42,221 bases of DNA from a virus. Positions 1-38,229 of the stretch are shown in pieces. Under the pieces are notes generated by a model. The model worked only from the letters and a program-made list of their open reading frames with translations. It searched no databases and was not told where the DNA came from. Each line of letters starts with the position of its first letter. Position 1 is the first letter of the stretch. Position numbers and translations under genes: made by a program. The DNA lies in IMG/VR virus record IMGVR_UViG_3300020465_000035, positions 1-42,221 of that record; one strand, given 5' to 3'.

Positions 1-3000
1 CTAGATCTCCAGTAACAAATTTAGTGTAATTTGATGCAATTTTTATGGTGCTGTCAGCACTACCCACATTAGAAGCAACAGTTGTTCTAGGTCCGTCAGC
101 ATTTATAGATTCAGGATCATGTCTGTAAATATAAACAAGATCTTGGTTCTTAGCATATGCAGCTGGTGCAGTTCCAAATGCTTCAGATACCATGAAGACT
201 GTACCATGTGAATTACCAATCTGTGTATCACCTGTACAAGTGTCAACCTCAAAGGTTGTAATACCACTACCGTTTGTTATAGTTAACTTCTTATTAGTAG
301 TTACATTCTGATATGGTGTGGTGCATGATCCATTTAATGTAAGACCACCAGTGTATGATTGATCACCATTTACAGTTATCGCACCATTAACAGAGTCAAC
401 TTCAAATAATGTATTTTCATTATTTGTATCACAACCATTCTTGACTGCAAACTTTTTAGCAACTTGTGCAAGTGTTTCTTTAAGTTCAAATATTTCACCA
501 TCATTACCAGTTGCAGTACGTGTAATAATTACATAATCACCTGGTGCACTAGTGCTAACATATGCAGGATCTCCACCAGTTTGACGGTTTGAACGTCCAA
601 CTAAACTACCCCCAAATTGAGATAGATAAACATTATCTTCTGTGCCTGAACCATCAATGCTTTGTGTTATCCATGTAGCACCGAACTGTATTGTACATTT
701 GAATATGGCAGTAGTATCAGGGTGAGTTGATGTTATTGCCGAAAGAGTTCCAAATGGTTGTCTTTGAACCTCAATGTAGTATGGTGTGCTATTAATTTGT
801 GGGAGACGTGTAATCTTAACAAACTCAGCATGTCTTCCAGATTGCTCCTCAGTATCAATAAGTAGAATATCATTCTCATTATAATATTGTGCACCACTAG
901 CATCATAAGGAGACTTCTTAATTGGTAAGTAGTATTTGTCTCCTGATAAAACTGGGAATGTAGCAGCACTTTGACCAGCTGGTGTTTGTTGGAATGCACT
1001 GCCTCCCCAAGTACCAGAACCAGATGTATCAATTTGGTTATATTCACCAGTTGGTGTAGTAGATGCAAAAGCAGCAACAGAAATTAGATCAACATTATTA
1101 TTGTATTGATTATTACCAAGAATACCACTCGCATGAGTTTGTATATCAGAACCTGCTTGAGCTCTGAATCCAACAAATGAGTAAGAAGCAAAACCACCAC
1201 ATAATGTTACATCAGCATCAAATCTGGTTGTAGCATTAACTCTTAAGTTGTTCCTGATTGTTGTTGTACCACCTTGACCTGCAATGGTTAGAGTAGCAGC
1301 GTTAGTAGCAAAATCTACAATGCTTGTAGCACTGTTACCAGATAGAAACTCAACAGTTCCAGATGGAGACTCAAACTTGGTAACATCAGATAATCCTCTT
1401 CTTGTACCAATGATTGTATCACCAGAAATTTTAAGTGCCTTAGTATCAATTTGTACAAAGGAATCAGATTCTGTGCTTGCAAACGCACCACCAAGAGTTA
1501 TCTTGGACTTATTAGCATTTGTACCATCAATACTATCACCAATAGTAATCTCACTATCATTACTTGTATTACCAATCTTGATGTTTTGTGATCCAGTGGT
1601 TACATTACCAATTTCAATATTTCTTACAGATCCACCAATCAATAAACCTTGAGTTGGTCTGGTTCCAGTTGTTAGACCGACGAACGTATTGTTATTGAAT
1701 AGTGTTGCTGTACCATTTGTAATAGTTGTATTGATATCAGCACTATTAGCACTACCAGCTCCACCACCATTGACTGATATATCATCTTGGAATATAGCAT
1801 TATCAGTAAACTCGGAAGTTCCAGTAACAGTTAATGCACTGTTCATGCTTGCTAGAGTTGTATTAATACCAACTCTTCCGTTATTTGTAGTAGAAACTCT
1901 AAATGTTGCTGCTGTTTGTGGAGCAGAACTATCACCACCAACCATGAACGCATGATCTTGAGCAGTTTGAGTTCTTGCTGCATATGTTGCATGAGCAGCA
2001 AAGTTTTCTATTGTTTTACCACTAATCCATGCAGTACCAACAACATCTAAGTTAGCAAGAGGATTAGTTGCAGCAGATACAAATGCGTCTGCATAATCTA
2101 CATGAGCAGCACGAGCAACAGTGTTAATACCAATCTTATATTCACCTATTGTCTGTGTATCTGTTCTAATTGTTTGAGCACCAAGTACACCAACTTCCTT
2201 CCAAGAAGCATTAGCAAGTTTAACTACAGCATTTGGCGTATTAGTATTATTAAATACCAACTCTCCAGATGAAATAGTATCATTTACAGCGATGCTAAAT
2301 GTGCATGTGTTACTACCATTGCTAAATCCAGTGTTGATTATGAATGTTCCGTTAAGTTTGTTCTCACTTAACCCTGTTAGTTTTATTTCTTGACCAGCAA
2401 TTAAACCACCAGTTATCACATTTCCATTTGTAACACCTGATTTCCACTGAATAGTTACAGTTCTAGTAGAATTAAATATAAATTTCTCAATCTGTGATGT
2501 AATTGTTACAAATGAGTTAGAGAATATCCAACCAAGAGAACCACTACTTCCTACAGACTCACCTTTGAGTAATATATCTCCAGTTAAAGGAGCACCTGCT
2601 CCACCATATGAAACAACTTGTGATATATCGTAAGTTCCATCCTGATCAGGAGTGATGTTAGACGCTTGTGATGCGACAGCGTGTGTTTGAATCTTATATC
2701 CTTGACCAGATCCTAGTGAACCACGTTGGTTGAACTGGAATACACCAGCTGTTACTCTGTTACCTGCGATTAGAACATCACCATTTGTCTGGCGATTTTT
2801 TGTCATCGCAGTTCTATCAAGAGTTGCATCATCATCAGTAGATGAAACATTAGATACAACTTTTAATGCAGATAGAACACCTACATTTGGTAAACCTAAA
2901 GTTTGGTCTCTTACATCTGCACTAACATTGATAGTTACAGGTGAATTGAAAGTGCTTGTTTGATCACCATTTTCACCACCGTTGACTGTAATATATTCAT

Positions 3001-6000
3001 TGAATGTAACAGGAGTATCAAATGTAGTAACTAGATTTCCTATTGCATCATCTTCATCCTCAGATGCTGCAAGTGATGCAGACTCTAAGAATATTTCTTC
3101 ACCAGTAATAGCATCAATCTTACGGTTACCAATGTATAAGTCACCATTACTATTGAGACCAGTATAGAATACTAAACCACCATCTTGTTTCTTAGATTGT
3201 GCGAAGAAGTCTTGTTCTACAGTCAATAGAACTTCTTGACGTGCTGGTAAACCAGTTGAGTAGTTACCTGGTCCAAAACCGAGGTATTCAAATGTGTGGT
3301 TTCCTGCTCTTGCGATAGATGGTCTTCGTAACTCAACATACAGACGTTGATCCACAACGACTGTGCTATCACCTGCAATTGGTATCTTACGATCCTCTGA
3401 TCCAGCTGATGCATTACCACTTTGTGCTTCAAGTTTGTTATTACCTGTATAATTATTATTCTTAAGTGCTTCAGTAGCAAGGAAGTCAGTAACAGATTCT
3501 TTTGTTAATGAACCTTTGAAGTCATTAACTGTAACTAGACCATGTACATAGTTATCAGCAGCTGAATATGTTTGACCAGGATCCTTTGCGTTAGGATCAA
3601 TTTGCTTGAACCATACGGGATCGTTCTTAAAGTCTAACGGGAATAATTTACTAATTGGTTGAGAGAACTTAAAGTTCCTGAAGTTACCGAGGTTACCTGC
3701 ACCTTGTGGGAATGGTGAAATGTTACCACGAACAGCTGTTAGATAGAATATACCATCTTGTTGATCAAAGATACGCCTTTGTATCTCCTGAACATCATAA
3801 ACGTAGAATGTTTCATCAATCTCACCAACATCTACCACAGATTCAACATAGAATTGGATGTTAGCAGCATCAGTGATGATATCGCCAGGTGTAATTGTGT
3901 AAACTTTAGCACCATTTTGTCTGTAGAAGAATTGTGACAGTCCTTCTTTAATAAGATCCTTACGTACAAGTGACTTACCACTATCAGGGAAGTCCAAAAG
4001 ATCTGCAAATACAACACCTTGAGTAAATCTTATATTATCTGTGGAAGAATACTTAATATCACCAGTGACACCTTTAATAATTAAATGCCATGTGTTTGTA
4101 TTAGGTACGTTCAACGCAGCATGAATAAAACCAGAACCAGATGAGTTACCAACCCATGTTACAGCATTTGCATTTGTAGATGCTGTTTTATTAGCAGTAA
4201 AGTTACCACCTTGAGGTGCAGTTATCTTGACTGTTGTAAAGTTTTCATTCTTGAGTCCAGTATTTGTAATGTTATGATCAAATACAGTTAGTTCTAAGAA
4301 CTCATCACTGCCTTCAGTATAGTATCTACCAGATTCAATAGACATTGAAACAAAGTTTGATGTCTCAATATTTCTTAAATAATTTTTAGTTCCTTTAGTA
4401 TCTTTTTTGTATGGATCATAGAAAACATTCTCCCCAGAAGCATTGGTCTTAGCAATACTATTAGATGTAAAGTCGGCATCAGTAAATCCAATTACCTCAT
4501 TTGCGTTACCACTATCAGATGTATTAAAGAACTTAGCTTTAGTTACATTACCTGTTACTGGTTTTAATCTAATTTTTTGTGGAAGGAGTTTTCTTGTATC
4601 ATCCTTTCTTGCCTTGATACTAAATCCATTTAAAGGATCACGAACAGACTTGAGATACTTAGGTATAACATAACGTAAACGATATATGCGATCATTTGCC
4701 TCTCTATCTGAATCATCAATTCTCTCATAGTAAGAGTCATTTGTTTTATTATTACCAGAACTATCATTATATTCAGCATCATGGAATCTTCCTAAGATAC
4801 TTTGTGAGTTTGAGGACTCATTCTTGACTTGTAAATACCACTTTCCTTTATCTGTAGTTCCAACATTACCATCGTATGTTGGATCATACTTCATTGGTGA
4901 CTCACGTTTGCAAGCAAATACTGAGAAGTTATATGTGCCACTGTTTAGAGGAACAAATATAATTGGATTAGTTCCTGCTATCGCATCAGCATGTGTTTTA
5001 TGAATTGTAATTACTTTAGCAGTATTATACTTAGCAAAGAAGAACTTATCTCCTCTAAGTCTACTAGTAGAATCAGCGACATCAGGATCATTAGCAGAAG
5101 ATCCACCTACAACTGGTAGATTACCACCCTCATTCTTTCTGAAGAATACCTCATGAGGTTCAACAGAAGCATTAGGAACATCAAATATATGTGGAATATC
5201 TGTAATAATTCCTCCACTAACAGCAGTTGAAAGAACACAACCATACTCATGTAGATCATACTTATCATCAAGAACAAATTGATAGATATCAATCTCAATG
5301 TCTGGATGAATTGCTTCTACCTCAGAAGAGTGTATGTAAATACCAGCAGCAGCGTTATCCTTGCTGCTTGCAAGCATTAGTTTAGTTTGATCACTACCAT
5401 TAAATGTTGTTGTGCCAGAATAATCTTCTGGTTTTGTAATTCTGCCAGGTGCAATTGCATAGTATTCTCTGTTAGTATCAAACCCATTGGGCAATCTTAC
5501 ATTACGTTTATCAACATCAACATATTGATTAGTTGTTGTATCATAACGAGGTCTTGGTACTAATCTTATTGGAGTTCCAGTTTCTAATTGATGAGGATTA
5601 GAACCTGATGTAGGTCCTGGTGTCCAATCTTTCAATCCCCAGATAGTTGCTCTAGCAGCAAGATTAGAAGATGCACTAGAGGGTTGAGTTCTAGTTACAG
5701 TTCCTACACCAGTCTGAATGATTGTTGTAATGTTAGCAAAGTACTGACGTATGGTATCAGAAACACCTACACATTCAGGATAGGTTGTATCTTGAGTAAT
5801 AGTTTCATCAACATTTGGTGTATAGGTAGTTGTGTATCTACCAGATGGTAATGTAAAGTATAGATATGTGTTGGTTGTGTTAGCAGTAGCGTTAACAGGA
5901 TTACCAGTTGACAATCCAAGTGGAGCAACATTTCTCTCAATAGAACTTAAGTTACCTTGTGTAGTAATTGTATCTGTAATTAACTTATAAAGAGTTGTAA

Positions 6001-9000
6001 CAGCAGAAGCAACATTCTGACAAGGACCGTTAGAAATATTTCTAATTACATTGTTTAGTGAAGTTGGTGTTGTTACAGTATCAGTAACAATTTTAAACAG
6101 AGTATCAATAGTAGATTTGACATTATCACATCTCGCACTACCTGTATGTCCTGTTCTAGTTACAGCAGCAAGAGTTTCTGGTGCTGAAATTGCATTCTGT
6201 ACAATAGTAGATAGAGTGGTAATTGAAGCTTCTACATCGTTATATGTAAATACAGATTGAACTCTTGCAACATCATTAAGTGTTGAATTATTACTAATTG
6301 CATTAGTTAAGATGGTTGACAGTGTATTAATATTACTAATTTCAGTTGCTAACTGTGCGTCAGTCCAGTTAGTAGTATTAGCACCAGAGTAAATAACTTG
6401 ATTTGCTGTAGTATGTCCACCAACGGTAACTGCATCACTCTTGATTATTTGAACAGCGATATCTTTCAAGTGATTGATAGCTTCTACTGTTTCAGTAACA
6501 GAAACACCTTGTATAGCACCAGCAACATATAAATTAGCAGTATCCCACACACGATCAGTACCACCATGCTTAATGTTAAATGCAATTGCATCAATAACAT
6601 CTAATAAGTCGTCATTAAAATCAGAGATTGGATAATTGATAGGAGGAGTGTAACCAGGATTATTAGCTAACATTCTACCCTGTGCTATATCAGCAATAAA
6701 TTGCCTATTGAGAGTTAATAATGTTGCAGAATCACCAGCTTCATCACTTACGATACTTATATTATCACTAGCAATTGTATTATCAAATGTCTGTGTCAAC
6801 CCATGTTTACCAACAACAAGAACTTTTTCATTTCTCATTGCTTGAATTGCTATCTGTGTAGCATCTTGGAATGCTTCTAATGTTTGAGTCTCTTCACCAG
6901 CAACATGAGCACCCTTAACATATAAGTTTGCCATATCCCAGACTCTATCATTACCACCAAACCCTACGTTAAATGCAACCTCAACAACAAAATCTTTAAT
7001 GTCATCAATACAATCTTGTTGATTACCAGTTGGAGGTAAGAAACCAGGATGATTTAAAATCATTCTCTCATATGCTTCTGCTGCGATAAATGCAGCGTTA
7101 GAAATTAAGAGATCTGATGCATCACCAGCACGTTCATTTATAGGAATCTGAGTATCAAGTGTTATTGTAGTATCAAAAGTTTGATGTAATTTATGAGAAC
7201 CAACAGCAAGAATTTTTTGATTCTTAATAACTTGAGCTGCCATATCCTTGGCATGTTCAAATACTATATTAGTCTCAGTTTCTTCGCCAGCAACATGAGC
7301 ACCAGTTTTATATGAGTACGCAGCATCCCATGTTTTGTCATTACCACCAAATGCTACGTTATCTGCAACTGCTTCCAGTAAATCTCTAACATCATCAACA
7401 CAATCAGAGTTGTGATATGTTCTATTACCTGCAACAGAGAATATCTTATGCACTGAATCAGTTTTAGCAGATTTAAATGTATGTGTGTAATTACCACCAC
7501 CTTTGACAACTGCCCTATTGACACTATTGGCAACAGCAGACACAAATGTATGTGTAGTTGTATTAGTAGAAGGTATATTCTTTAATGTTTGTAAACTAAA
7601 TGTGTTAGCATCAGATACAGTAATTTTGACATACTTATTACTGATAGGATCAGTAGAACGAGGATATGCGTGGTTTGTGGCGTTGTTATCTTGAGAGCAT
7701 GTAAATACGATTGCATTATCAGCTATCTTAACAAAATCATCAGTTTGCATTCCATGATTTGCAACTGTCAATACCAATACACCTGTAGTTGGATTGTAAT
7801 CAGCATTAGTTGGAGTTAAATCAGTTGCAGCAACGAATTGATGATCATACTGTTGACCAGGTGCAGAAGCACCAACATTGACTGTAATTGTTCCTGCTTG
7901 TTTTTCAATGGCGTTAGTTGCAGCTCTCTTAAATGTATGAACACTAGATGGTTCATACTTAACACTGTTTGCTACACCACTATCAAATGTATGAGCAGAT
8001 TGTGGTAAGTATTGAATCGCTTCGTTAAGAGCAGATACAAATGTATGAGTGTATTGATCATTTGCAGAAGAAACACCAACATTAAATGTTATTTCTCCAG
8101 TTTGTTTCTTGATTCCATTAGCAACAGCACTTACAAATGTATGTGTAGAATTATCAGAGGATTTACCAACATTTACCGTAAATGTATTTACAGTCTTATT
8201 TCTTATTTGTAACCAACGATTACTTGGGAAGTCAAAACCAGCACGAGGATATGTTTTCTGTGCTGTGTTACCATCAAGACTACATGTGAATGTTAATGAT
8301 CCATCAGCGACTTGTATGTAATCACCACCATTTGAAACACTATTGGCGACAGCAGATACAAATGTATGTACAGTTGTATTTGTAGATGGTGTATAATCTA
8401 ATATCTGGACATCAAATGTATTTGTTGTTACATTAGATACTGTAAGAGCTCTGTTGCTTGCAGGATCATTTGGTCTTGGATATGAATGATTAGTTAGATT
8501 GCCATCTTGAGTACATGTAAATGTAAGAGCGTAATCAGCAATTCTTACAAAGTCATTATTCTCTAAACCATGATTTGCAATAGTAAGTGTTACAATACCT
8601 GTGGTTGGATTATATGATGCATCGGTTGGAGTAAACACAGCAGGACCGTTAAACCCATGATTAGCAACAGTTAATGTTAGATCACCACTTGTAGGATCAT
8701 ATACTGCGTTAGTTGCAGTATGGTCAGAAGAACTAACATCTGTAATTCTTATTGATTTACCTGCGAAGGGATCTGTATTTGGACGAGGATAAGAATGTTG
8801 AGTTGCATTATTATCTTTAGAACATGTAAAGGTTAATGAGTTATCTTTAAGAACTATGTCATCACCTACACGTAAGCCATGTTGTCCTATAACAGCTACC
8901 ATCTCACCAGTTGCAGCGTTATATGATGCAGTTGAAGGCTTAAAGAATTTATTAGTGCCAGCATTACCAACCTTAACAGTGATGGTTGTCGCTGTTACAT

Positions 9001-12000
9001 TTGTAATCTTGAGTGATCTACCAGATGCTTGATCTCTACCTGCACGTGGATATGCTTGTGCTGTATCATTGCCATCCATTGTGCACTTAAATGATACTGC
9101 ACCATTCTCAATCAAAACTCCTTTTCCTTTCTTAAGACTATGTGCTCCGATAGTTAGAGTTAAATCACCACTTGCAGGATCGTATGTTGCATCTGAGGGA
9201 GTAAATGTTTGATTAGAACCAGCAGCACCGACTATTACCTTAAACGTATCAGCAGTTGTGTTGGAAACTGTTAACCACTCGCCATCAACGGGATCACTCT
9301 CTCTTGGATACTTATGCTCTGTAGCATTATTATCCATTGCACATGTAAATGTTAAGGAGTCAGTTGCGAGTCTAATTCTATCTCCATCAACAAGACCATG
9401 AGCTGTTTTTGTAAAAACTAAATCTCCATTTGCAGGTGTATATGCAGCACCTGTAGGTGTAAAGAATGAACTACCAACCTTGGTAATCTTCAATGCATTC
9501 TGATATGCTCTATCCTTTCTTCTTTCAATAGCATTTGCAGCTGCACTCACAAAAGTATGCACTGATGTGTTTGTAGATGGTGTAATATCTAATGTTTGAA
9601 TATCAAATGTATTCTGTGTTACGTTAGATATTGGAACAAATTTACCACTAATAGGATCTGTATTTCGTGGATATGTTTTTTGTGTCTGATTATTATCAGC
9701 AGCACAAGTAAATGTTAGTGAATTATCTACAACTTTAATTAAATCTAGATTCTCAAACCCGTGAGCATTTACAGTAAATGTTATTATACCTGTTGTTGGA
9801 TTATATACAGCATTTGTTGGAGTATGCTGAGTTGTATCACCTCTAGGATATAAGTGATCAGTAGCAAAAGAATCTTGAGAACATCTAAATTTTAGAGAAC
9901 CATCAGCAATTCTGATGCTCTGTCCTTCATGAAAATCATGATCATCAATAGTTAATTGAAGATCACCAGTTGCAGCATTATAATCTGCATCTGTTACATC
10001 AAAACTAGTGGTTAATGATTTCCCAACATTAATTGTAAATGTATCAGTTGTTGATTCTATAAGAGGAAGTATACTTGCACCAGCAGGATCTCCTGATCTA
10101 GGATATGAATGTTGTGTAGCATTGCCATCCATACCACAAGTAAAGTTTAATGAGTTAAAATCAATTCTAACTGCATCGTTTTCTCCTAAAACACCGTTAG
10201 AAACCGCAGATACAAATGTATGTGCGTATTGATCAGTCGGATCAGAAGCACCAACATTAACTTCAAATGTATCTGTTGTCTTATTTGATATTGTTAACCA
10301 TTTTCCACTAGAAGGATCTGTTGCACGTGGATAAGTATGTTGAGTTGCATTACTATCTTTGGTACATGTAAAGGTTATTGAATTATCTTTAATTAAAATT
10401 CTCTGTCCATTAGTAAATCCATGACCAGCGATAGTCAATACTAATTTACCGTCAGATGGTGTATAAACAGCATTAGTAACTGTATGTACACTTGCCTTTG
10501 TCATACCATGAGCTGTCACTGTTATAACCATTTCTCCAGTTTCAGCATCATATACTGCATTAGTAGGAGTATACTTTTGAGTTGATGATTCAATAATCAT
10601 TCTATCAACGGACTCAGCAGCAATCAAATTTTTATTAGCAAGAATAAGATTGCGAGCATCACCATTTCTATCAGCAACTAATTCTGCTTGATCAACAGTA
10701 ACAGGATCATTTGCGGTAGTAAAATCTTGTGTTAAACCATGAGAACCAAATACAAATACATTCTCTTTACGCATGACTTGAATCGCCATGTCCTTAGTGT
10801 AGTTAAACGCTGCAAGAGTCTCATCTTTATTTGTTGATGCATTTGAGATAGCACCTCTTTCATAGAAATCAGCGATGTCCCATGTTTCAGCGTTACCACC
10901 AAAACCTGTATTATCTGCAACAGATTCTATTGCATTTTCTAGATCAGTAATGAACGTAGCTTTGGTATATCCAGTAGCAGATGTGTAACTAGGATAATCA
11001 AGAAGCATTCTATCATATGCTTCATTTGCAATAAATGTTTTATTATTTACAATTAATGCACGAGCATCACCAAAACGATCTTGTACAAATTGTTTTTGTG
11101 CAGTTTGTGTGTTATCACCCAACTCAATAGAAGCTGAATCAAGAACTCTCTTAACAAATGTATTATCAGGAATTACTGGAGTTGTAGGTCTTGTAGCATT
11201 ACTGTTTAACTTTCCATTTGTAAACTGACTAGGATCATAGTCAGCAACTGTCATACCCTCTACAACACCACTAGTATCACCTATATTGACAATAGCACTA
11301 TTATTAGTAGTGTCTACACCTGTGCGTAAGTATGAGAAGTTACGCATTGCAGCGATTGCAAGATCCTTAGCGTAATTGTAACCCTCTAAAGTTTCTGTTA
11401 GTTCACCATCAATGTAAGATAAATTAGTACCAACGTAGTAAGATTCAGCAGCTTGAATAGTATTGATGTTGCCACCAAGTCTTAAATCCTGAATTGTAGC
11501 ATCAATTAAATATCCAACGTCTCTACGACACTTAGTAATAGTGATTGTTTCTTTTACCTTAAGTGCAGGATATTTGGCAAGAATACGATCATATGCCTCA
11601 TGTGCAATAAAATCTTTATTTGCTTCAATTCTATCAGCAGCATCAAGAATCTTATTATTAATAGTTACACCAGAAGGATTCAATATATCTGCTGTAGCAG
11701 TAAATTTTTTAAATCCACTTGGTTCTAAGGTTGCAAAGAATGTATTGTTGCCACCAGCAGTTCTTGGATTTAATTTAACATACAATTTATCATCTGTCTT
11801 AGCACCAATTCTATATCCACCAATAGTGGCAGCTGGACGTTTCTTTGGATCAATTGCTTGATCATCACCATGATATATCTTTGTATTGTTACTAGGATCG
11901 TTAGATGCATAAACATCTAAAGTGTAATAAGATTGTCTTCTAACATTTCCAGAACTTTCATCAACTGTCTGAGGAGGAACAATATCTGTAATGAATCCAC

Positions 12001-13600
12001 CCTTGTCTTGGTTGAATGCAAATCCTTTGAAACCAATAGCATGTAAGGATGTGTTACCAAAGTTAGAGTTAGAGTTGGTGATTGACATGTCACCACCTGA
12101 CTCCATCAAGAAGTGATCAGCAAAACCAACAGCGAAGATACTAACACACTGGATGAATGAATCTTCTGACGCACGAACGTGGAAGTTTCTCCAATCATCT
12201 TTCCAGAATGCATCACCCTTAGTGTGGTATGGTACTGTTGCAAATGCATCTGTTAAGGATGCTTGATTAAATGTGTTTGTAAACTCGTCATATCTAATGA
12301 ATGCTCTGTCATCTTTCTGTAGAGATACACCCGTATACTGAGCAATAACCATTGATTTGAAACCAGTAGCTTTCAAACCATTCGCCCAGATACCACAAAT
12401 ACCCCATGTAGATCTGATGGAGCAGTTGAATACATATGGTGATGCAGATTCAACAGAATCAACTTCTGCTTTTACAACAGCATTAGAATTTAAACCATTT
12501 GACGTGGTGTAAGTTGTACCACTAACAAGACTAGTATTTGTACCTAACGCACTTACACTGCCAGGAATTTGGTAGGAAAATTTTTTCTTATCTACCAAAT
12601 CAAGAGATGAAATTGCAAATGTACCATCTATCTGATCATCCAGACCATTGTTTTCTACAGCAATGAATTGATTTCTAAAGTAACCATGATTAACTTTTGT
12701 GGTTATCTCAACAGTGATAGTTCCACGTGGAGAAGAATCGGTACATTTAATTGACTCAATAGCACGAATGTCAGAAAGAGGACCTACGATTCTATTCTCT
12801 TCAATTCTATCTCCAAACTCATTTGCATCATCTATAGTTGGTTGGAACTGTGAAAATGCTTTAGCAACCTTCTGATAATATATTCCTAATTCTTCTTTAT
12901 CAGCATATTCAAATACAGTTAATTTATGATGAGAAAAATTTGGAACTGCAAGATCAGTCCATGCACTGCCAGGACTGTCAGCAGGTGGTGTTTGATAATA
13001 AACTTTTGCTACACCATCTGTCTCATTATATAATGGAGAGGTTGGTTCTAAATCACCATCTTTAATGGTAAATTGCCAGAAATATGTACCACCAGTTACA
13101 TTGAAGATAGCGGATCTTTTTTCTATTGGATCAGCAGGATCGGGAACATATAGAGGACGTACAATAGTTCTACGAAGATCATAACCAATAATAGAAGAAC
13201 CACGAGGAATAATAACACCACCTTCAGTGTTATTAAATTTGTAAAGAATGTTGTTTGGATCGGAAAGGTCTAGAATAGAATCATCGTTCCATTCACTTAA
13301 TGCTTGGTCAAAATTAAATGCATTGATACCTGTAGAAGAAGTAAGACCAGGTCGGTTATCAATGTAATGATTACCAGGCATTACCATGACGGTAAATTGG
13401 TCAAATCTATCGTTGTCTATTCCTGGTACGTAGGAAAAACGTGAAATTTCTATGAATGCTCTCTGTAAAGACTTAAACGGTCTGATAGGAGAGTTACCTC
13501 TGTTATTCAGTTCATCTGAAGCGTTAAAGTCGTCAGGGGAGACATACAAATACTTACCAGTTTTAGAACTAATAAGATTATCAAGTCTTGTCAATGCCAT
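1..13600 (-). CDS. Giant repeat-rich virion structural / tail-fibre-like protein (partial, C-terminus beyond the left edge)
   Basis: One minus-strand frame stays open from an ATG at 13600 to base 1, about 4,533 codons, with no stop in sight. I read it at the start, near 9000, 6000, 3000 and at the edge, always in the same frame with protein-like sequence. The N-terminus (MALTRLDNLISSKTGKYLYV) is of a type I associate with cyanomyovirus structural proteins. Approximate modules: residues 1-650 unique; 650-1000 and 2050-2390 helical repeats with EAYDRM and FGGN motifs; 1007-2053 an array of beta modules with FTC..D.NAT.H.YPR; 2420-2560 short helical repeats; beyond 3400 fibre-like sequence with GRVGINT and TINV motifs. 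A TATAAATA late promoter lies 36 bp upstream, so it is probably a late virion component. The exact position (baseplate, fibre, whisker) cannot be told. The many short ORFs on both strands here are shadows. Confidence 0.85.
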   Translation of the reverse strand, partial: MALTRLDNLISSKTGKYLYVSPDDFNASDELNNRGNSPIRPFKSLQRAFIEISRFSYVPGIDNDRFDQFTVMVMPGNHYIDNRPGLTSSTGINAFNFDQALSEWNDDSILDLSDPNNILYKFNNTEGGVIIPRGSSIIGYDLRRTIVRPLYVPDPADPIEKRSAIFNVTGGTYFWQFTIKDGDLEPTSPLYNETDGVAKVYYQTPPADSPGSAWTDLAVPNFSHHKLTVFEYADKEELGIYYQKVAKAFSQFQPTIDDANEFGDRIEENRIVGPLSDIRAIESIKCTDSSPRGTITVEITTKVNHGYFRNQFIAVENNGLDDQIDGTFAISSLDLVDKKKFSYQIPGSVSALGTNTSLVSGTTYTTSNGLNSNAVVKAEVDSVESASPYVFNCSIRSTWGICGIWANGLKATGFKSMVIAQYTGVSLQKDDRAFIRYDEFTNTFNQASLTDAFATVPYHTKGDAFWKDDWRNFHVRASEDSFIQCVSIFAVGFADHFLMESGGDMSITNSNSNFGNTSLHAIGFKGFAFNQDKGGFITDIVPPQTVDESSGNVRRQSYYTLDVYASNDPSNNTKIYHGDDQAIDPKKRPAATIGGYRIGAKTDDKLYVKLNPRTAGGNNTFFATLEPSGFKKFTATADILNPSGVTINNKILDAADRIEANKDFIAHEAYDRILAKYPALKVKETITITKCRRDVGYLIDATIQDLRLGGNINTIQAAESYYVGTNLSYIDGELTETLEGYNYAKDLAIAAMRNFSYLRTGVDTTNNSAIVNIGDTSGVVEGMTVADYDPSQFTNGKLNSNATRPTTPVIPDNTFVKRVLDSASIELGDNTQTAQKQFVQDRFGDARALIVNNKTFIANEAYDRMLLDYPSYTSATGYTKATFITDLENAIESVADNTGFGGNAETWDIADFYERGAISNASTNKDETLAAFNYTKDMAIQVMRKENVFVFGSHGLTQDFTTANDPVTVDQAELVADRNGDARNLILANKNLIAAESVDRMIIESSTQKYTPTNAVYDAETGEMVITVTAHGMTKASVHTVTNAVYTPSDGKLVLTIAGHGFTNGQRILIKDNSITFTCTKDSNATQHTYPRATDPSSGKWLTISNKTTDTFEVNVGASDPTDQYAHTFVSAVSNGVLGENDAVRIDFNSLNFTCGMDGNATQHSYPRSGDPAGASILPLIESTTDTFTINVGKSLTTSFDVTDADYNAATGDLQLTIDDHDFHEGQSIRIADGSLKFRCSQDSFATDHLYPRGDTTQHTPTNAVYNPTTGIITFTVNAHGFENLDLIKVVDNSLTFTCAADNNQTQKTYPRNTDPISGKFVPISNVTQNTFDIQTLDITPSTNTSVHTFVSAAANAIERRKDRAYQNALKITKVGSSFFTPTGAAYTPANGDLVFTKTAHGLVDGDRIRLATDSLTFTCAMDNNATEHKYPRESDPVDGEWLTVSNTTADTFKVIVGAAGSNQTFTPSDATYDPASGDLTLTIGAHSLKKGKGVLIENGAVSFKCTMDGNDTAQAYPRAGRDQASGRSLKITNVTATTITVKVGNAGTNKFFKPSTASYNAATGEMVAVIGQHGLRVGDDIVLKDNSLTFTCSKDNNATQHSYPRPNTDPFAGKSIRITDVSSSDHTATNAVYDPTSGDLTLTVANHGFNGPAVFTPTDASYNPTTGIVTLTIANHGLENNDFVRIADYALTFTCTQDGNLTNHSYPRPNDPASNRALTVSNVTTNTFDVQILDYTPSTNTTVHTFVSAVANSVSNGGDYIQVADGSLTFTCSLDGNTAQKTYPRAGFDFPSNRWLQIRNKTVNTFTVNVGKSSDNSTHTFVSAVANGIKKQTGEITFNVGVSSANDQYTHTFVSALNEAIQYLPQSAHTFDSGVANSVKYEPSSVHTFKRAATNAIEKQAGTITVNVGASAPGQQYDHQFVAATDLTPTNADYNPTTGVLVLTVANHGMQTDDFVKIADNAIVFTCSQDNNATNHAYPRSTDPISNKYVKITVSDANTFSLQTLKNIPSTNTTTHTFVSAVANSVNRAVVKGGGNYTHTFKSAKTDSVHKIFSVAGNRTYHNSDCVDDVRDLLEAVADNVAFGGNDKTWDAAYSYKTGAHVAGEETETNIVFEHAKDMAAQVIKNQKILAVGSHKLHQTFDTTITLDTQIPINERAGDASDLLISNAAFIAAEAYERMILNHPGFLPPTGNQQDCIDDIKDFVVEVAFNVGFGGNDRVWDMANLYVKGAHVAGEETQTLEAFQDATQIAIQAMRNEKVLVVGKHGLTQTFDNTIASDNISIVSDEAGDSATLLTLNRQFIADIAQGRMLANNPGYTPPINYPISDFNDDLLDVIDAIAFNIKHGGTDRVWDTANLYVAGAIQGVSVTETVEAINHLKDIAVQIIKSDAVTVGGHTTANQVIYSGANTTNWTDAQLATEISNINTLSTILTNAISNNSTLNDVARVQSVFTYNDVEASITTLSTIVQNAISAPETLAAVTRTGHTGSARCDNVKSTIDTLFKIVTDTVTTPTSLNNVIRNISNGPCQNVASAVTTLYKLITDTITTQGNLSSIERNVAPLGLSTGNPVNATANTTNTYLYFTLPSGRYTTTYTPNVDETITQDTTYPECVGVSDTIRQYFANITTIIQTGVGTVTRTQPSSASSNLAARATIWGLKDWTPGPTSGSNPHQLETGTPIRLVPRPRYDTTTNQYVDVDKRNVRLPNGFDTNREYYAIAPGRITKPEDYSGTTTFNGSDQTKLMLASSKDNAAAGIYIHSSEVEAIHPDIEIDIYQFVLDDKYDLHEYGCVLSTAVSGGIITDIPHIFDVPNASVEPHEVFFRKNEGGNLPVVGGSSANDPDVADSTSRLRGDKFFFAKYNTAKVITIHKTHADAIAGTNPIIFVPLNSGTYNFSVFACKRESPMKYDPTYDGNVGTTDKGKWYLQVKNESSNSQSILGRFHDAEYNDSSGNNKTNDSYYERIDDSDREANDRIYRLRYVIPKYLKSVRDPLNGFSIKARKDDTRKLLPQKIRLKPVTGNVTKAKFFNTSDSGNANEVIGFTDADFTSNSIAKTNASGENVFYDPYKKDTKGTKNYLRNIETSNFVSMSIESGRYYTEGSDEFLELTVFDHNITNTGLKNENFTTVKITAPQGGNFTANKTASTNANAVTWVGNSSGSGFIHAALNVPNTNTWHLIIKGVTGDIKYSSTDNIRFTQGVVFADLLDFPDSGKSLVRKDLIKEGLSQFFYRQNGAKVYTITPGDIITDAANIQFYVESVVDVGEIDETFYVYDVQEIQRRIFDQQDGIFYLTAVRGNISPFPQGAGNLGNFRNFKFSQPISKLFPLDFKNDPVWFKQIDPNAKDPGQTYSAADNYVHGLVTVNDFKGSLTKESVTDFLATEALKNNNYTGNNKLEAQSGNASAGSEDRKIPIAGDSTVVVDQRLYVELRRPSIARAGNHTFEYLGFGPGNYSTGLPARQEVLLTVEQDFFAQSKKQDGGLVFYTGLNSNGDLYIGNRKIDAITGEEIFLESASLAASEDEDDAIGNLVTTFDTPVTFNEYITVNGGENGDQTSTFNSPVTINVSADVRDQTLGLPNVGVLSALKVVSNVSSTDDDATLDRTAMTKNRQTNGDVLIAGNRVTAGVFQFNQRGSLGSGQGYKIQTHAVASQASNITPDQDGTYDISQVVSYGGAGAPLTGDILLKGESVGSSGSLGWIFSNSFVTITSQIEKFIFNSTRTVTIQWKSGVTNGNVITGGLIAGQEIKLTGLSENKLNGTFIINTGFSNGSNTCTFSIAVNDTISSGELVFNNTNTPNAVVKLANASWKEVGVLGAQTIRTDTQTIGEYKIGINTVARAAHVDYADAFVSAATNPLANLDVVGTAWISGKTIENFAAHATYAARTQTAQDHAFMVGGDSSAPQTAATFRVSTTNNGRVGINTTLASMNSALTVTGTSEFTDNAIFQDDISVNGGGAGSANSADINTTITNGTATLFNNNTFVGLTTGTRPTQGLLIGGSVRNIEIGNVTTGSQNIKIGNTSNDSEITIGDSIDGTNANKSKITLGGAFASTESDSFVQIDTKALKISGDTIIGTRRGLSDVTKFESPSGTVEFLSGNSATSIVDFATNAATLTIAGQGGTTTIRNNLRVNATTRFDADVTLCGGFASYSFVGFRAQAGSDIQTHASGILGNNQYNNNVDLISVAAFASTTPTGEYNQIDTSGSGTWGGSAFQQTPAGQSAATFPVLSGDKYYLPIKKSPYDASGAQYYNENDILLIDTEEQSGRHAEFVKITRLPQINSTPYYIEVQRQPFGTLSAITSTHPDTTAIFKCTIQFGATWITQSIDGSGTEDNVYLSQFGGSLVGRSNRQTGGDPAYVSTSAPGDYVIITRTATGNDGEIFELKETLAQVAKKFAVKNGCDTNNENTLFEVDSVNGAITVNGDQSYTGGLTLNGSCTTPYQNVTTNKKLTITNGSGITTFEVDTCTGDTQIGNSHGTVFMVSEAFGTAPAAYAKNQDLVYIYRHDPESINADGPRTTVASNVGSADSTIKIASNYTKFVTGDL
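6420..11625 (-). repeat. Five helical repeats in the giant protein, the third one split
   Basis: Units of about 110 residues run from N..FIA.EAYDRM..P.Y through D...AVA.N..FGGN..TWD.A..Y..GA to ETL.AF...KDMAIQVMRN and V..GSHGLTQ.F. Approximate coding positions are 11625-11300, 11050-10715, 10650-10580 joined to 7440-7160 (interrupted), 7110-6780 and 6720-6420. The predicted character is alpha-helical and they probably arose by tandem duplication. Function unknown; they may act as a spacer or rod within the giant virion protein. Confidence 0.7.
7440..10580 (-). repeat. Array of beta-rich FTC/YPR and HTFVSA modules within the giant gene
   Basis: I count ten copies of a module built as HG(F/L)..D.I.IADNSLTFTC..D.NAT.H.YPR..DP.SGK.L.I.N.T..TF.V. 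The YPR motifs fall near 10370, 10130, 9890, 9710, 9340, 9080, 8820, 8510, 8290 and 7700. They alternate with a second short module, HTFVSAV.N.I, near 10205, 9550, 8350, 8135, 8040, 7985, 7930, 7540 and 7480. Each FTC unit keeps a single cysteine. The pattern resembles immunoglobulin-like or carbohydrate-binding beta domains of phage fibres, but I recognise no named family. Confidence 0.7.
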
Positions 13601-13701: not shown

Positions 13702-14313
13702 CTACTCTATATATTCTAACCAACAGTTAAGTAAATATTTTTTACCAGATAAAGGAGGATTACCTCTATGAGTGTGAGTAAACCCAGATGGGCATATGAC
13801 CATTGTACCTGTTCTTGGTTTTACTCTACGACTTTGATACAACCATTCAGTCTCTCCACCTTCCTTAACATCATTGAGATATAACATGACCAATGCAATT
13901 CTAGCTCCTAATGGTAATGCACCATGTTCACAATGCCATACATGATATCCTTGTTTAGGAAGAGTTTTTTGAATCTTTACAGTTCCTGATATTGTATGTT
14001 TAGCAACTCTTTCTAATGCACCATACTCATTAACATAATGTTTATAGCAACTCATCACTGTTTGTTTAAAAGTATCAAATATCCAACAATCTAATCTGGT
14101 ATTGATATCAGTTTGTGGAGTACAAAAGTTAGCAGTGTTAGATAAAAAATATTGACTATTATCTTTATCAGTTTTTAAGGGATTCTTTTCTGCGTCTTGT
14201 CTACTCAAAACTAATCCATTTGAAGCATATCTTTCGTAATATTCAATTATCCTATTACAATCCTCTGCTGATACAGCGTTGGGATAAACTCCTATAAAAT
14301 CTGTGTGATCCAT
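13702..14313 (-). CDS. 2-oxoglutarate / Fe(II)-dependent oxygenase (prolyl 4-hydroxylase-like)
   Basis: 203 aa, close to the usual size of phage 2OG-Fe(II) oxygenases. Visible motifs are WHCEH (His127 and Glu129, in the place of the family's HxD/E iron ligands), the strand RIALVMLYLNDVKEGGETEW, then G-T-M-V-I-C-P and FTHTHRGNPP with the second iron-ligand His (180 or 182), followed by KKYLLNCWLEY. The enzyme would couple decarboxylation of 2-oxoglutarate to oxidation of a substrate; these are common in cyanophages but the substrate is unknown, possibly protein residues or nucleic acid. It lies between the giant structural gene and the tmRNA. There is no good ribosome binding site upstream, only an A-rich leader. 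The HxE instead of HxD variant should be noted. The family call is fairly sure; the substrate is not. Confidence 0.8.
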   Translation of the reverse strand: MDHTDFIGVYPNAVSAEDCNRIIEYYERYASNGLVLSRQDAEKNPLKTDKDNSQYFLSNTANFCTPQTDINTRLDCWIFDTFKQTVMSCYKHYVNEYGALERVAKHTISGTVKIQKTLPKQGYHVWHCEHGALPLGARIALVMLYLNDVKEGGETEWLYQSRRVKPRTGTMVICPSGFTHTHRGNPPLSGKKYLLNCWLEYIE

Positions 14314-14330
14314 ATTTTTTTAATTAAGAA

Positions 14331-14349
14331 GGAGGGCATTACACCCCCC
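14331..14349 (-). terminator. GC-rich hairpin downstream of the tmRNA coding piece (weak terminator or processing site)
   Basis: The minus strand has GGGGGG, a 7-nt loop, then CCCTCC (six pairs including one G-U), followed by a mixed TTCTTAATT tract. The hairpin is clear but the U-tract is poor, so it may mark the 3' end of the tmRNA transcript or be a processing signal. Confidence 0.4.
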
Positions 14350-14583
14350 AAGGGTTGTTGGGTTACAAGGACAACCTATCCCCGATCTCTCCTAGGCAGT
14401 CGCTAGTTCACGAGTGCGAGAGAATGCAACGATTTTATTCGCTGCGAAGTTAGATGTTTTTGCATCTATGGGTTGCTTATCCAAGCAGGTTTCAGTCACA
14501 ATCGTAATACCCCGTCAAAACCAGTGCAGCCCCATAAGTGGAGCTGAGGGGAGTTGAACCCCTGTCCGAAGCTATTCGTAAAG
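14350..14583 (-). ncRNA. ssrA: Phage-encoded circularly permuted (two-piece) tmRNA
   Basis: On the minus strand an acceptor piece comes first: CTTCGGACAGGGGTTCAACT starts the T-arm, whose 5-bp stem is AGGGG/CCCCT, ending CAGCTCCA at 14539. Five bases later (14538-14534) the coding piece begins at 14533 with GGGGCTGCACTGGTTTTGAC. The two ends pair as a 7-bp acceptor stem, GGGGCUG with CAGCUCC, placing a G-U at the third pair, the alanine identity element. The tag frame starts GCG at 14442 and ends TAG at 14392: ANKIVAFSRTRELATA. Its first half matches the ANKIV.FSR start of picocyanobacterial tags as I recall them; the tail differs. CCA is not encoded. Outer limits are approximate. Permuted two-piece tmRNA is the known arrangement in cyanobacteria; it rescues stalled ribosomes. 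Confidence 0.9.
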
Positions 14584-14937
14584 TCACCTAGGTAGCAGTA
14601 TGAGATCAGGCAATTGCTTGATACCAGCATGCACCAGTCTGTGACAATTGGCACAAAGAGGTACACACTTATCTACTTCCTCCTTTAACTTATCATAAGG
14701 TCCTGTTCTTGTCAACCCTGTGAGACTAACAGTTTTTTCACTATTATCTGCATGATGAAGATCCATACAGCATATGGGATACTGTATGTTACAAATAACA
14801 CAAGGACTTGATTTAGCATCATCAACTAACTTCTGTCTATTTTTAGGACCACGTTGATTCATTCTTTTAGTTTTACCGTGTTTTCTTGCCCATTCTCTCT
14901 GATATTCTCTATTCTTTTCCTTGTCCTTTATGGGCAT
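14584..14937 (-). CDS. HNH homing-type endonuclease
   Basis: 117 aa from the ATG at 14937, which has GGAG 8 bp upstream; an in-frame ATG 13 codons earlier lacks one and lies inside the preceding small ORF. The N-terminus (1-45) is very basic and DNA-binding in character. The nuclease core has CVIC (46-49), MDLHH with the tandem His at 61-62, and CVPLCANCHRLVH (91-103) with paired cysteines for zinc. The product would be a small site-specific nicking or cutting enzyme, typical of freestanding HNH genes in T4-like phages. Its stop codon lies immediately before the tmRNA acceptor piece, so the two may travel as one unit. Confidence 0.8.
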   Translation of the reverse strand: MPIKDKEKNREYQREWARKHGKTKRMNQRGPKNRQKLVDDAKSSPCVICNIQYPICCMDLHHADNSEKTVSLTGLTRTGPYDKLKEEVDKCVPLCANCHRLVHAGIKQLPDLILLPR

Positions 14938-15037
14938 GTAATTTCTCCAATGCTTTACGCACCTCTGGTGTTTCATCCCAAGACCATATATTAGTGTGCT
15001 TAGGATTCTTTTTTTCTTGTATAAATGTTTTTTTCAC
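14909..15037 (-). CDS. Possible 42-aa hypothetical protein (GTG start)
   Basis: A short frame opens with GTG at 15037, AAGGAG 10-12 bases upstream, and ends at 14909. It contains NPKHTNIWSWDETPEVRKAL, which looks like real protein, not random translation. It lies between cpeT and the HNH gene and overlaps the HNH start by 29 bases in another frame; the HNH ribosome binding site lies inside it. I do not recognise a family. Evidence is the good ribosome binding site and compact spacing only. Confidence 0.5.
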   Translation of the reverse strand: MKKTFIQEKKNPKHTNIWSWDETPEVRKALEKLHAHKGQGKE

Positions 15038-33543: not shown

Positions 33544-34188
33544 TCAATTTTCATCAGCATAAGAGAAGAAAAACTCATCCATCATTCGGTTTGCTTTTTC
33601 TTTACCAAATCTTTGAGTCATGTACCCTAAGATAGGGTCAAGTTTTTTCATGTAATTATCAAAGTCTTTGTAAAAACTTGTGTCATTACCAGTAGGTTGT
33701 GCTTCATCAATCATACTACGATATGTTTCAAGATACTTTCTAAAATCAGGTAAATATTGATCAACCTCATCAAAAGTACAATACCTTACAAAAATGTTTT
33801 CTGAAAAATGATTACCCATTTCAAAGAACCGATAATCTTTTTCTGCTTTAGGTAAAGTGGGTAAAGAAAACAAAAATTTTTCAACTGGATGTTGAAAGTC
33901 AAATACAATAATGACTCTTTTCTCATGGAATCCCATCAAATCCATACCAAAACAGGGAAGATAACTCCCTGTCTTAGGATAGATTACATTGTTATAGATA
34001 TCTGATTTTTCATTATAGATATCCACTCGTCTTGATTTTATAAAATGTGGAGCAGTAAAAATATCTGCTGTTAAAGTCAAATTATTTTTACCTTTCCACT
34101 CACACCATCGTGAATCAAATATAAACTCAGGGAAAACATCATCAAGAACTTTTTTGTAGTTGACCCAGAGGTCAACACTATTAGTCAT
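33544..34188 (-). CDS. pebS: Ferredoxin-dependent bilin reductase, phycoerythrobilin synthase type (PebS)
   Basis: 214 aa. Close match along its length to the PebS of phage P-SSM2 as I remember it: SDIYNNVIYPKTG, LPCFGMDLMGF, VIIVFDFQHP, YRFFEMGNHFS, NIFVRYC and KKLDPILGYM. The two catalytic aspartates of PebS (Asp105 and Asp206) correspond to Asp83 and Asp184 here; the N-terminus is about 22 residues shorter. PebS makes phycoerythrobilin from biliverdin in two two-electron steps, with ferredoxin as donor. Substrate comes from the ho1 product. PebA, PebB or PcyX are possible alternatives but fit less well. The start codon overlaps the gp32 end by eight bases, so its translation is tied to gp32, in the place where T4 has gene 59. 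Confidence 0.9.
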   Translation of the reverse strand: MTNSVDLWVNYKKVLDDVFPEFIFDSRWCEWKGKNNLTLTADIFTAPHFIKSRRVDIYNEKSDIYNNVIYPKTGSYLPCFGMDLMGFHEKRVIIVFDFQHPVEKFLFSLPTLPKAEKDYRFFEMGNHFSENIFVRYCTFDEVDQYLPDFRKYLETYRSMIDEAQPTGNDTSFYKDFDNYMKKLDPILGYMTQRFGKEKANRMMDEFFFSYADEN

Positions 34189-35074
34189 CAGATGCTAGGG
34201 ATGCAAAATAGGATAGTGCATCATCATCTTCAACAACTGCTTCCTGTTTAACAGGAGTAGCACTCATCTTTGCACGAAAATCTGACTGTGGAGCAGCAAC
34301 TGGTTCATACTCTTCGCTATCTACAGACGGTGTTGTAGGACGTGGAGCAGACCCTAGAACAAGGTTTAACCTTTTTTCTAGTTCCTCATATGTTTTGAAT
34401 TGATCACGTGCTGTGAACGCTTCTAATGAATGCTCTTGCTTCCATGTTGCTTCAAGTTCAGTATCATCTGCACTAAGAGCACTAACACTATCAAACTCAC
34501 TGCTGTCATAGTTCCAAAAACCTGCTACCTTTTTAATCTTTAACTTAAAGTTAGCACCTTCCCATAGATCAAACACATTTACTGGTGTCTCATCTTGGAA
34601 CTCAGGTTGCATAGCAGCAAGGATCTTGTCATGGATTTTCTTACCATACTTATACAAGAATACTTTACCCTCGTTCTCAGGGTGCTTTGGATCTTTTACA
34701 ACTAAGATGTTACTGTAGTAAGAAAGTTTTCTCTTTTGCTTACGGGCAGTATCTTTATCAGCATCTTCGCCACTATTCCATAGACGACGATTGACTTCAC
34801 CTACTGGATCTTTATCTCCTAAAGTAGTAAGACTGTTTTCTATGTACCAACCACCAGGTCCTTGAAATGCATGACTGTAAACCTTTGCCCAAGGTACTGT
34901 CTCACCATCTGGTGCTGGTAAAAAACGAATGACAGCGTAACCATTACCTGATGCATCTACTTCTGGTTTCCAGAAGCGTTCATCAACTTGTTTGTTACTA
35001 ACTGTCTTCTCTAGTTCTTTTTGTAAAAATGATAGATTTGATTGAGATTTTTTCTTTAATTCTGCGAACGACAT
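34181..35074 (-). CDS. 32: Single-stranded DNA-binding protein gp32
   Basis: 297 aa, the T4 gp32 size (301). N-terminal basic stretch MSFAELKKKSQSNLSFLQKE (the cooperativity domain of T4 gp32), core with NGYAVIRFLPAPDGETVPWA and HAFQGPGGWYIENSLTT, SYYSNILVVKDPKHPENEGK, and an acidic C-terminus ending DDDALSYFASLASDD, which in T4 binds partner proteins. The Zn-finger cysteines of T4 are missing, as I expect in cyanophages. It coats single-stranded DNA during replication, recombination and repair. Preceded by a late promoter and an unusually long, structured leader of about 235 bases, and followed by pebS. Confidence 0.9.
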   Translation of the reverse strand: MSFAELKKKSQSNLSFLQKELEKTVSNKQVDERFWKPEVDASGNGYAVIRFLPAPDGETVPWAKVYSHAFQGPGGWYIENSLTTLGDKDPVGEVNRRLWNSGEDADKDTARKQKRKLSYYSNILVVKDPKHPENEGKVFLYKYGKKIHDKILAAMQPEFQDETPVNVFDLWEGANFKLKIKKVAGFWNYDSSEFDSVSALSADDTELEATWKQEHSLEAFTARDQFKTYEELEKRLNLVLGSAPRPTTPSVDSEEYEPVAAPQSDFRAKMSATPVKQEAVVEDDDALSYFASLASDD

Positions 35075-37330: not shown

Positions 37331-37594
37331 TTACCACTGGTATCCGTCTTTTGATCTAGGGCATGATCCATAATTAGGATTCTTTTTAACTTGAGACATC
37401 ACATCTGCCCAACCAGGATGTGTTTTTCTCATCTTATCTCTCCAATCTCCAACTTCACCCATGCTTGCTACACCTGCTGTCCAATCTTTATCCCAATCAG
37501 GATTGTCTATCCTCCATTGTTCATAGTCTTGAATAGTCATACGAAACTCTTTTGTCTCGCCAGTTTCTTTGTGTTTTACATTATAGGTTGGCAT
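37331..37594 (-). CDS. 87-aa conserved cyanophage protein
   Basis: Start at ATG 37594, overlapping the thyX stop (TAATG), with GGAG in the thyX end as ribosome binding site. MPTYNVKHKETGETKEFRMT, then IQDYEQWRIDNPDWDKDWTA and HPGWADVMSQVKKNPNYGSC. The beginning looks like an FmdB-type zinc-ribbon start (MPTY.......), but the paired cysteines are missing, so no zinc site is expected. Widespread small protein of cyanomyoviruses by my recall. Function unknown; context suggests nucleotide or DNA metabolism. Confidence 0.75.
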   Translation of the reverse strand: MPTYNVKHKETGETKEFRMTIQDYEQWRIDNPDWDKDWTAGVASMGEVGDWRDKMRKTHPGWADVMSQVKKNPNYGSCPRSKDGYQW

Positions 37595-38229
37595 TAATTC
37601 CACTCCAATGCTTCGGATATAATAGGAAATTGTTCTTTAAATATATCTCTACATTTTTCAGCAATTTCCATGTGTTCTTTTTGTGTTCCATGTGCAGAAC
37701 GTAGATCTATATAGTGAATCCAAGAACGTATTGTTCCTGTCATATACAATCTAGTTGGTGTTGCTAACGGGAGAACAAATCTCGCACATTCCTTCGCAAC
37801 ACCCTCACGTATGAGTTCATTGTAAAGGTCAAGTCCCTCAGCGAAATACCTTTCAATATTTTTCTGAAGTTGTTTCGTTTGATCTTCTGGGATATCATCT
37901 ATAGAATTTTGTCTGTTTTTGGTATCTTGTCTTCTTAAATCAGGAATAGGAATCTTCCCTAAAAAATTAGTATTAGCATAACGCTGACTAAATTCTTGGA
38001 ATGTAAATGATCTATGTCTTAAAACTTGTGCTGCTAATCCTCTAGTGGTTTCAATCTCTAGAGACATATGTGCTTGTTCAAAAACCGACCAGTGTTGATG
38101 CTTTATGCAGTAACCTAACAAACCAGCTACGTTTGGATTGTCCTGATTTTTTGGGTTGCTCACCCTTGCTATGTACCCTATTGTCTCCTCCGCTTTCGGA
38201 GTGACCGTGATGAGTTTCACTTGTTGCAT
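37594..38229 (-). CDS. thyX: Flavin-dependent thymidylate synthase ThyX
   Basis: 211 aa, the family's length. ThyX signature RHRSFTFQEFSQRY (71-84) is intact, with HQHWSVFEQAHMSLEIE before it and an FVLPLATPTRLYMTGTIRSW segment after. It methylates dUMP using methylene-tetrahydrofolate with FAD and NADPH, giving dTMP for phage DNA. Cyanophages use this in place of T4 gene td. The frame of a small gene upstream overlaps its first 150 bases. Followed by the 87-aa gene with overlapping stop/start. Confidence 0.93.
   Translation of the reverse strand: MQQVKLITVTPKAEETIGYIARVSNPKNQDNPNVAGLLGYCIKHQHWSVFEQAHMSLEIETTRGLAAQVLRHRSFTFQEFSQRYANTNFLGKIPIPDLRRQDTKNRQNSIDDIPEDQTKQLQKNIERYFAEGLDLYNELIREGVAKECARFVLPLATPTRLYMTGTIRSWIHYIDLRSAHGTQKEHMEIAEKCRDIFKEQFPIISEALEWN

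Follow-up and report, generated by a model that had tools for sequence, protein, structure and literature searches.

A circularly permuted two-piece tmRNA gene of the cyanobacterial type, with an altered tag end, in a T4-like cyanophage

The minus strand of IMG/VR virus record IMGVR_UViG_3300020465_000035, analysed over its full 42,221 nucleotides (42.2 kb; hereafter the window), was found to carry a single complete, circularly permuted two-piece tmRNA gene (ssrA) of the cyanobacterial type at positions 14332-14627. ARAGORN called the gene at complement 14301-14630, and an Rfam cmscan matched the cyano_tmRNA model RF01851 from 14627 to 14332 over its full length (model positions 1-288 of 288) with 114.2 bits, above the gathering score of 70, and an E-value of 2.4e-30. 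The tmRNA_permuted model RF04321 matched as well (80.2 bits, E-value 6e-14). These E-values and the covariation of the helix between the two pieces place the identification far beyond chance. The gene is phage-encoded, as it lies within a virus record with T4-like genes, including psbA and gp32, on both flanks. A preliminary description of the stretch had proposed a phage-borne, circularly permuted two-piece tmRNA and suggested the permuted Rfam model and ARAGORN as checks; both gave a match, and the proposal is thus borne out. Its position and content were right, but no strand had been given, and the span of 14350-14583 proved slightly short, since 14588 is the first position of the inter-piece helix and the model match extends from 14627 to 14332.

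The acceptor piece precedes the coding piece, and a 7-bp acceptor stem spans both; this order and the five-base link at 14534-14538 are exactly as previously described. Based on the sequence, the CM alignment and helix counts, the acceptor piece (14539-14590, minus strand) consists of one strand of helix P2, the T arm AGGGG-UUCAACU-CCCCU, the acceptor 3' strand CAGCUCC (14546-14540) and the discriminator A (14539), and CCA is not encoded. The coding piece begins with its 5' strand GGGGCUG (14533-14527), which pairs with 14546-14540, and its part up to the tag stop codon covers 14392-14533 (minus strand; delimited by ARAGORN, CM alignment and sequence). Its 3' hairpin at 14331-14349 (minus strand), recovered by our scan and as the last helix of RF01851, is terminator-like, with eight pairs followed by UUCUUAAUUA. 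A scan of the minus strand for promoters gave no promoter-like site. The G-U that had been noted at the third acceptor pair is G3-U70, the usual alanine identity element and no imperfection of the stem. All 72 cyano-type viral copies that were extracted, with a pattern favouring G3-U70, have it, and copies whose stem differs (L235) retain it too.

Helix P2 connects the two pieces by pairing 14588-14567 with 14514-14494 (14494-14588, minus strand; from CM alignment and covariation against shuffles). In the window, 14 of 16 pairs are standard, and P2b contains two U-U mismatches. When pairing in 41 distinct cyano-type viral sequences was compared with that in shuffles, P2b was paired in 90% (shuffled maximum 78%), P2c in 100% (shuffled maximum 93%) and the CUUCG part of P2d in 100% (shuffled maximum 94%); pairing of the short AUA segment of P2d was not above that of the shuffles in this set. 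Parts of the helix show changes on both sides among the viral relatives: compared to the window, both strands are changed in P2d of L110 (GAUC/GGUC for CUUC/GGGG) and in P2 of L015 (CC/GG for CG/CG). Pair 5 of the acceptor stem is G-C, A-U, C-G or U-A across the 72 cyano-type viral copies, with compensatory changes, the pairing figures for this stem being partly conditioned by the extraction, which demanded 6 of 7 pairs. Covariation of the inter-piece helix among the phage relatives shows that selection acts on the structure of the RNA.

The intervening segment CUUAU (14534-14538, minus strand) is expected to be removed by tRNA-type processing. Its five bases had been judged very short, but they are ordinary for a phage. 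Among the matches listed, the spacers in the 72 cyano-type viral copies extracted measured 4-11 bases (median 5), and the gap from the discriminator to the next gene had a median of 4 bases in 381 distinct adjacent tRNA pairs from the same viral contigs. A tRNA gene lies directly upstream of the tmRNA in 82 of the 151 cyano-type phage copies among the matches listed. Since phage spacers, tRNA gaps and upstream tRNAs agree, the five-base spacer corresponds to the usual gap of phage tRNA operons, and spacer length could be discarded as an anomaly. Compared with the window, cyanobacterial host spacers ranged from 5 to 30 bases (median 12.5), these lengths being taken solely from a set of 108 genes with a search pattern limited to 30. 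In at least 19 of the 151 cyano-type copies, from metagenomic relatives, the spacer contains an intact tRNA gene, located a few bases from each piece (L240:1471-1553, L261:2411-2483 and 17 other loci, with at least five distinct tRNA versions). The nested tRNAs are specific for Tyr (two subtypes) or Asn (three subtypes), two of them, checked singly against RF00005, scored 58 and 69 bits, and the contigs stem from different metagenomes. Among the phage isolates searched, none was found with a tRNA nested in the tmRNA spacer; one spacer-nested gene, a tRNA-Ala, has been reported and described as unique (PMC11915505). The nested genes show that in permuted tmRNAs the intervening segment can serve as nothing more than a tRNA-operon spacer, a point relevant to the processing and the possible origin of such genes.

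The phage is a T4-like cyanophage, with genes for baseplate and tail proteins, gp32, PhoH, thymidylate synthase, ferredoxin, psbA, heme oxygenase and CpeT. A tail-fibre frame at 2-13600 (minus strand) exceeds 4,533 codons, runs off the end of the window and is matched repeatedly by several PHROG fibre families. The window also holds a manA RNA (RF01745, 35107-35305, minus strand, 156 bits) immediately upstream of the gene for the gp32 ssDNA-binding protein (34181-35074). Directly upstream of the tmRNA lies an HNH endonuclease gene (14584-14976, minus strand; PHROG 3106, E-value 9.5e-26, translation and comparison with L015), whose last codons, AGG UGA, sit within the conserved UAGGUGA of the acceptor piece. 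Nucleotide relatives of the window among isolates are distant; among metagenomic sequences, the locus has its closest relatives in L015 and L360, and L110 is similar on both sides. Identity to L015 is 88% across 7.4 kb of the fibre gene and 93% across 248 bases of the tmRNA; L015 carries a tRNA-Met, a tRNA-Arg and a small leader hairpin between the HNH gene and the acceptor piece (L015:7600-7810). The abutting HNH gene and the absence of these two tRNAs and the hairpin from the window might be taken to mean that the tmRNA is the functionless remnant of a host gene fragment, or that host sequence was joined to the contig by misassembly. Such an origin is very improbable and largely refuted by the phage genes on both sides (giant tail fibre, 2OG oxygenase, HNH, CpeT, heme oxygenase and baseplate), the same locus in L015 and L110, the covarying helices and the separation of the phage copies from those of the hosts. 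The flanking genes and the shared locus likewise eliminate host contamination or a chimera.

The gene shares common descent with other phage copies. On a quick, short tree, for which the tag end was left out of the alignment, the host and virus labels need 2 changes, and a single clade of all viral rows was not rejected (p-AU 0.94); many recent captures from hosts could be dismissed on these grounds. Since the phage copies group together, the capture is probably ancient, with spread among phages since then. The tmRNA type and the tag core point to a cyanobacterial donor, in line with the previously proposed derivation from a captured host gene.

Permuted tmRNAs also occur in alpha- and betaproteobacteria, so that the description of two-piece tmRNA as a cyanobacterial host feature holds for the type found here but not for the permutation as such. 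Nor is a two-piece tmRNA in a phage exceptional, as had been implied: 53 have been reported from phages, 50 of them marine or aquatic (PMC9004378), 79 unique phage tmRNA sequences have been listed (PMC11915505), and many viral contigs carry relatives. The gene in the window is therefore not new in kind. The marine phages Melnitz, Mosig and AG-345-P14 (PMC9004378) resemble it as marine myoviruses with a phage-borne permuted tmRNA, but that of Melnitz is alphaproteobacterial in type, whereas AG-345-P14 carries a direct homologue and likewise a glutamine riboswitch. In the window, this riboswitch (RF01739, 38640-38686, minus strand, 37 bits) precedes the thymidylate synthase frame (37594-38229) by about 400 bases. 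The tmRNAs of Sf-FS3 (L001), S-CAM1 (L002), S-CAM3 (L003) and S-SSM7 (L005) are 71-82% identical to that of the window over the matched part, and in the records inspected they have no tmRNA annotation, the region being annotated as a hypothetical protein or not at all. In S-SSM7 and Sf-FS3, as in the window, the tmRNA lies shortly upstream of the giant fibre gene, and the tag ends of the four phages differ (STVAA, DELVTA, RELATA).

The tag frame is complete, as had been stated, with the core ANKIVAFSRTRELATA and a stop codon at 14442-14392 (14392-14442, minus strand; from ARAGORN and tag comparison), and conforms to the cyanobacterial core AN(N/K)IVxFSR. The tag start called by ARAGORN lies further 5', at 14463 (AKTSNFA-ANKIV...). 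Among copies, most of the variation in the core falls at third codon positions. The window thus shares with host cyanobacterial tmRNAs (RF01851; RF04321) the permutation, G3-U70, the T arm, the inter-piece helix, the tag core and a tag-end hairpin, but differs in its T stem (AGGGG/CCCCT), its location among phage genes and its tag end, which is RELATA instead of APVAA (ANKIVAFSRTRELATA in the window; host tag ANNIVRFSRQAAPVAA). The window tag ends in Ala-Thr-Ala and so lacks the Ala-Ala end of the host-type proteolysis tag, a feature that typifies host members and is no part of the definition of the RNA family. All 107 host tags obtained end in Val-Ala-Ala (VAA), one of the 108 host genes having yielded no tag. 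Among the matches listed, VAA was found in 41 of 151 cyano-type viral tags and other ends in 110 (ATA 38, ALV 22, VTA 15, ATV 11, SLV 7 and rarer forms), and in 13 of the 44 copies recovered by searches that made no use of the tag. Unlike that of the window, tmRNAs of other types in viruses mostly keep the Ala-Ala end (48 of 52 among the matches listed). Four of the scans for viral copies relied on the tag core, so that the core is sampled with bias and the end is not; the counts from the collection are lower bounds, and the viral status of the records rests on IMG/VR.

The terminal Ala-Ala is recognised by ClpX in E. coli, where KM rises when either alanine is replaced (PMC7652416); degradation is slower for an AAV variant of the tag (PMC9382460). 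The GYVG, pore-2 and RKH loops, with which the E. coli enzyme reads Ala-Ala, are retained in ClpX of Synechococcus WH7803 and RCC307. Because ClpX reads the terminal Ala-Ala, the phage ends are altered and the loops are kept in host ClpX, the cyanophage tags without Ala-Ala are probably weaker degradation signals, by analogy with data for ClpXP of E. coli and not of cyanobacteria. We tentatively propose that cyanophage tmRNAs, unlike those of hosts and other phages, were selected for altered ends (ATA, VTA, ATV, ALV, SLV and others), such that ribosomes would be freed while the tagged proteins would escape ClpXP or be degraded more slowly. The retention of VAA by a minority of phage copies (13 of 44 found without the tag) counts against this. 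The main rival reading, which we regard as plausible if somewhat short of an even chance, is that the tag end shifted only through drift and rebuilding of the RNA hairpin at the end of the frame (GCACUCG...CGACUGC, 14395-14420, minus strand; from folds of host and phage tag ends), with no proteolytic purpose. Between host and phage, the form of this hairpin is kept but its sequence is not, and it persists across tag types with differing sequence. The closing strand in the TRELATA family carries GCG ACU codons that are nearly invariant even at third positions, and the end type switches repeatedly on the tree. As the tag end lies within a hairpin that every lineage has rebuilt, RNA structure alone may explain the change in the peptide. 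However, hosts hold VAA in 107 of 107 tags with free third positions, and drift in the hairpin therefore need not alter the peptide; moreover, the QTALV and STVAA families of tag ends show no change at first or second positions. In the literature searched, mostly without subscription papers, we found no paper that takes up tag-end changes or tRNA nesting in cyanophages.

Overall, the gene is likely a working copy of host ssrA in a T4-like cyanophage, although the two U-U mismatches in P2b and the missing leader hairpin speak against this. We infer that the tmRNA is expressed, processed and charged and that it rescues ribosomes; it may control ribosome rescue during infection, as had been suggested. 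The precursor would be cut by host tRNA-processing enzymes on either side of the five-base spacer, CCA would then be added to the acceptor piece, and the two pieces would be held together by the acceptor stem and helix P2. Host AlaRS (via G3-U70), SmpB and EF-Tu would deliver the tmRNA to stalled ribosomes, where it would append a tag ending in ANKIVAFSRTRELATA and free the ribosome. Less surely, the Ala-Thr-Ala end, in place of the Val-Ala-Ala of the host, might lead to less efficient degradation of tagged products by ClpXP, so that the phage would gain ribosome recycling with slower loss of tagged proteins. The RNA could instead be a dominant-negative decoy, impairing trans-translation in the host by tying up its SmpB or stalled ribosomes. 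Mycobacteriophage DS6A likewise encodes an RNA directed at trans-translation, and its tag-less form is reported, as cited in PMC11915505, to inhibit the endogenous tmRNA in E. coli. Unlike the DS6A RNA as described there, the window RNA has a tag frame, which is complete and whose amino-acid sequence is conserved; a pure decoy would need none, and we consider this role unlikely. Read as a working ssrA copy, the gene confirms that T4-like cyanophages stably carry a ribosome-rescue RNA of their own, which is unannotated in the reference records inspected, and it raises the testable question of whether changes in the final tag residues let phages separate the rescue of ribosomes from protein degradation.
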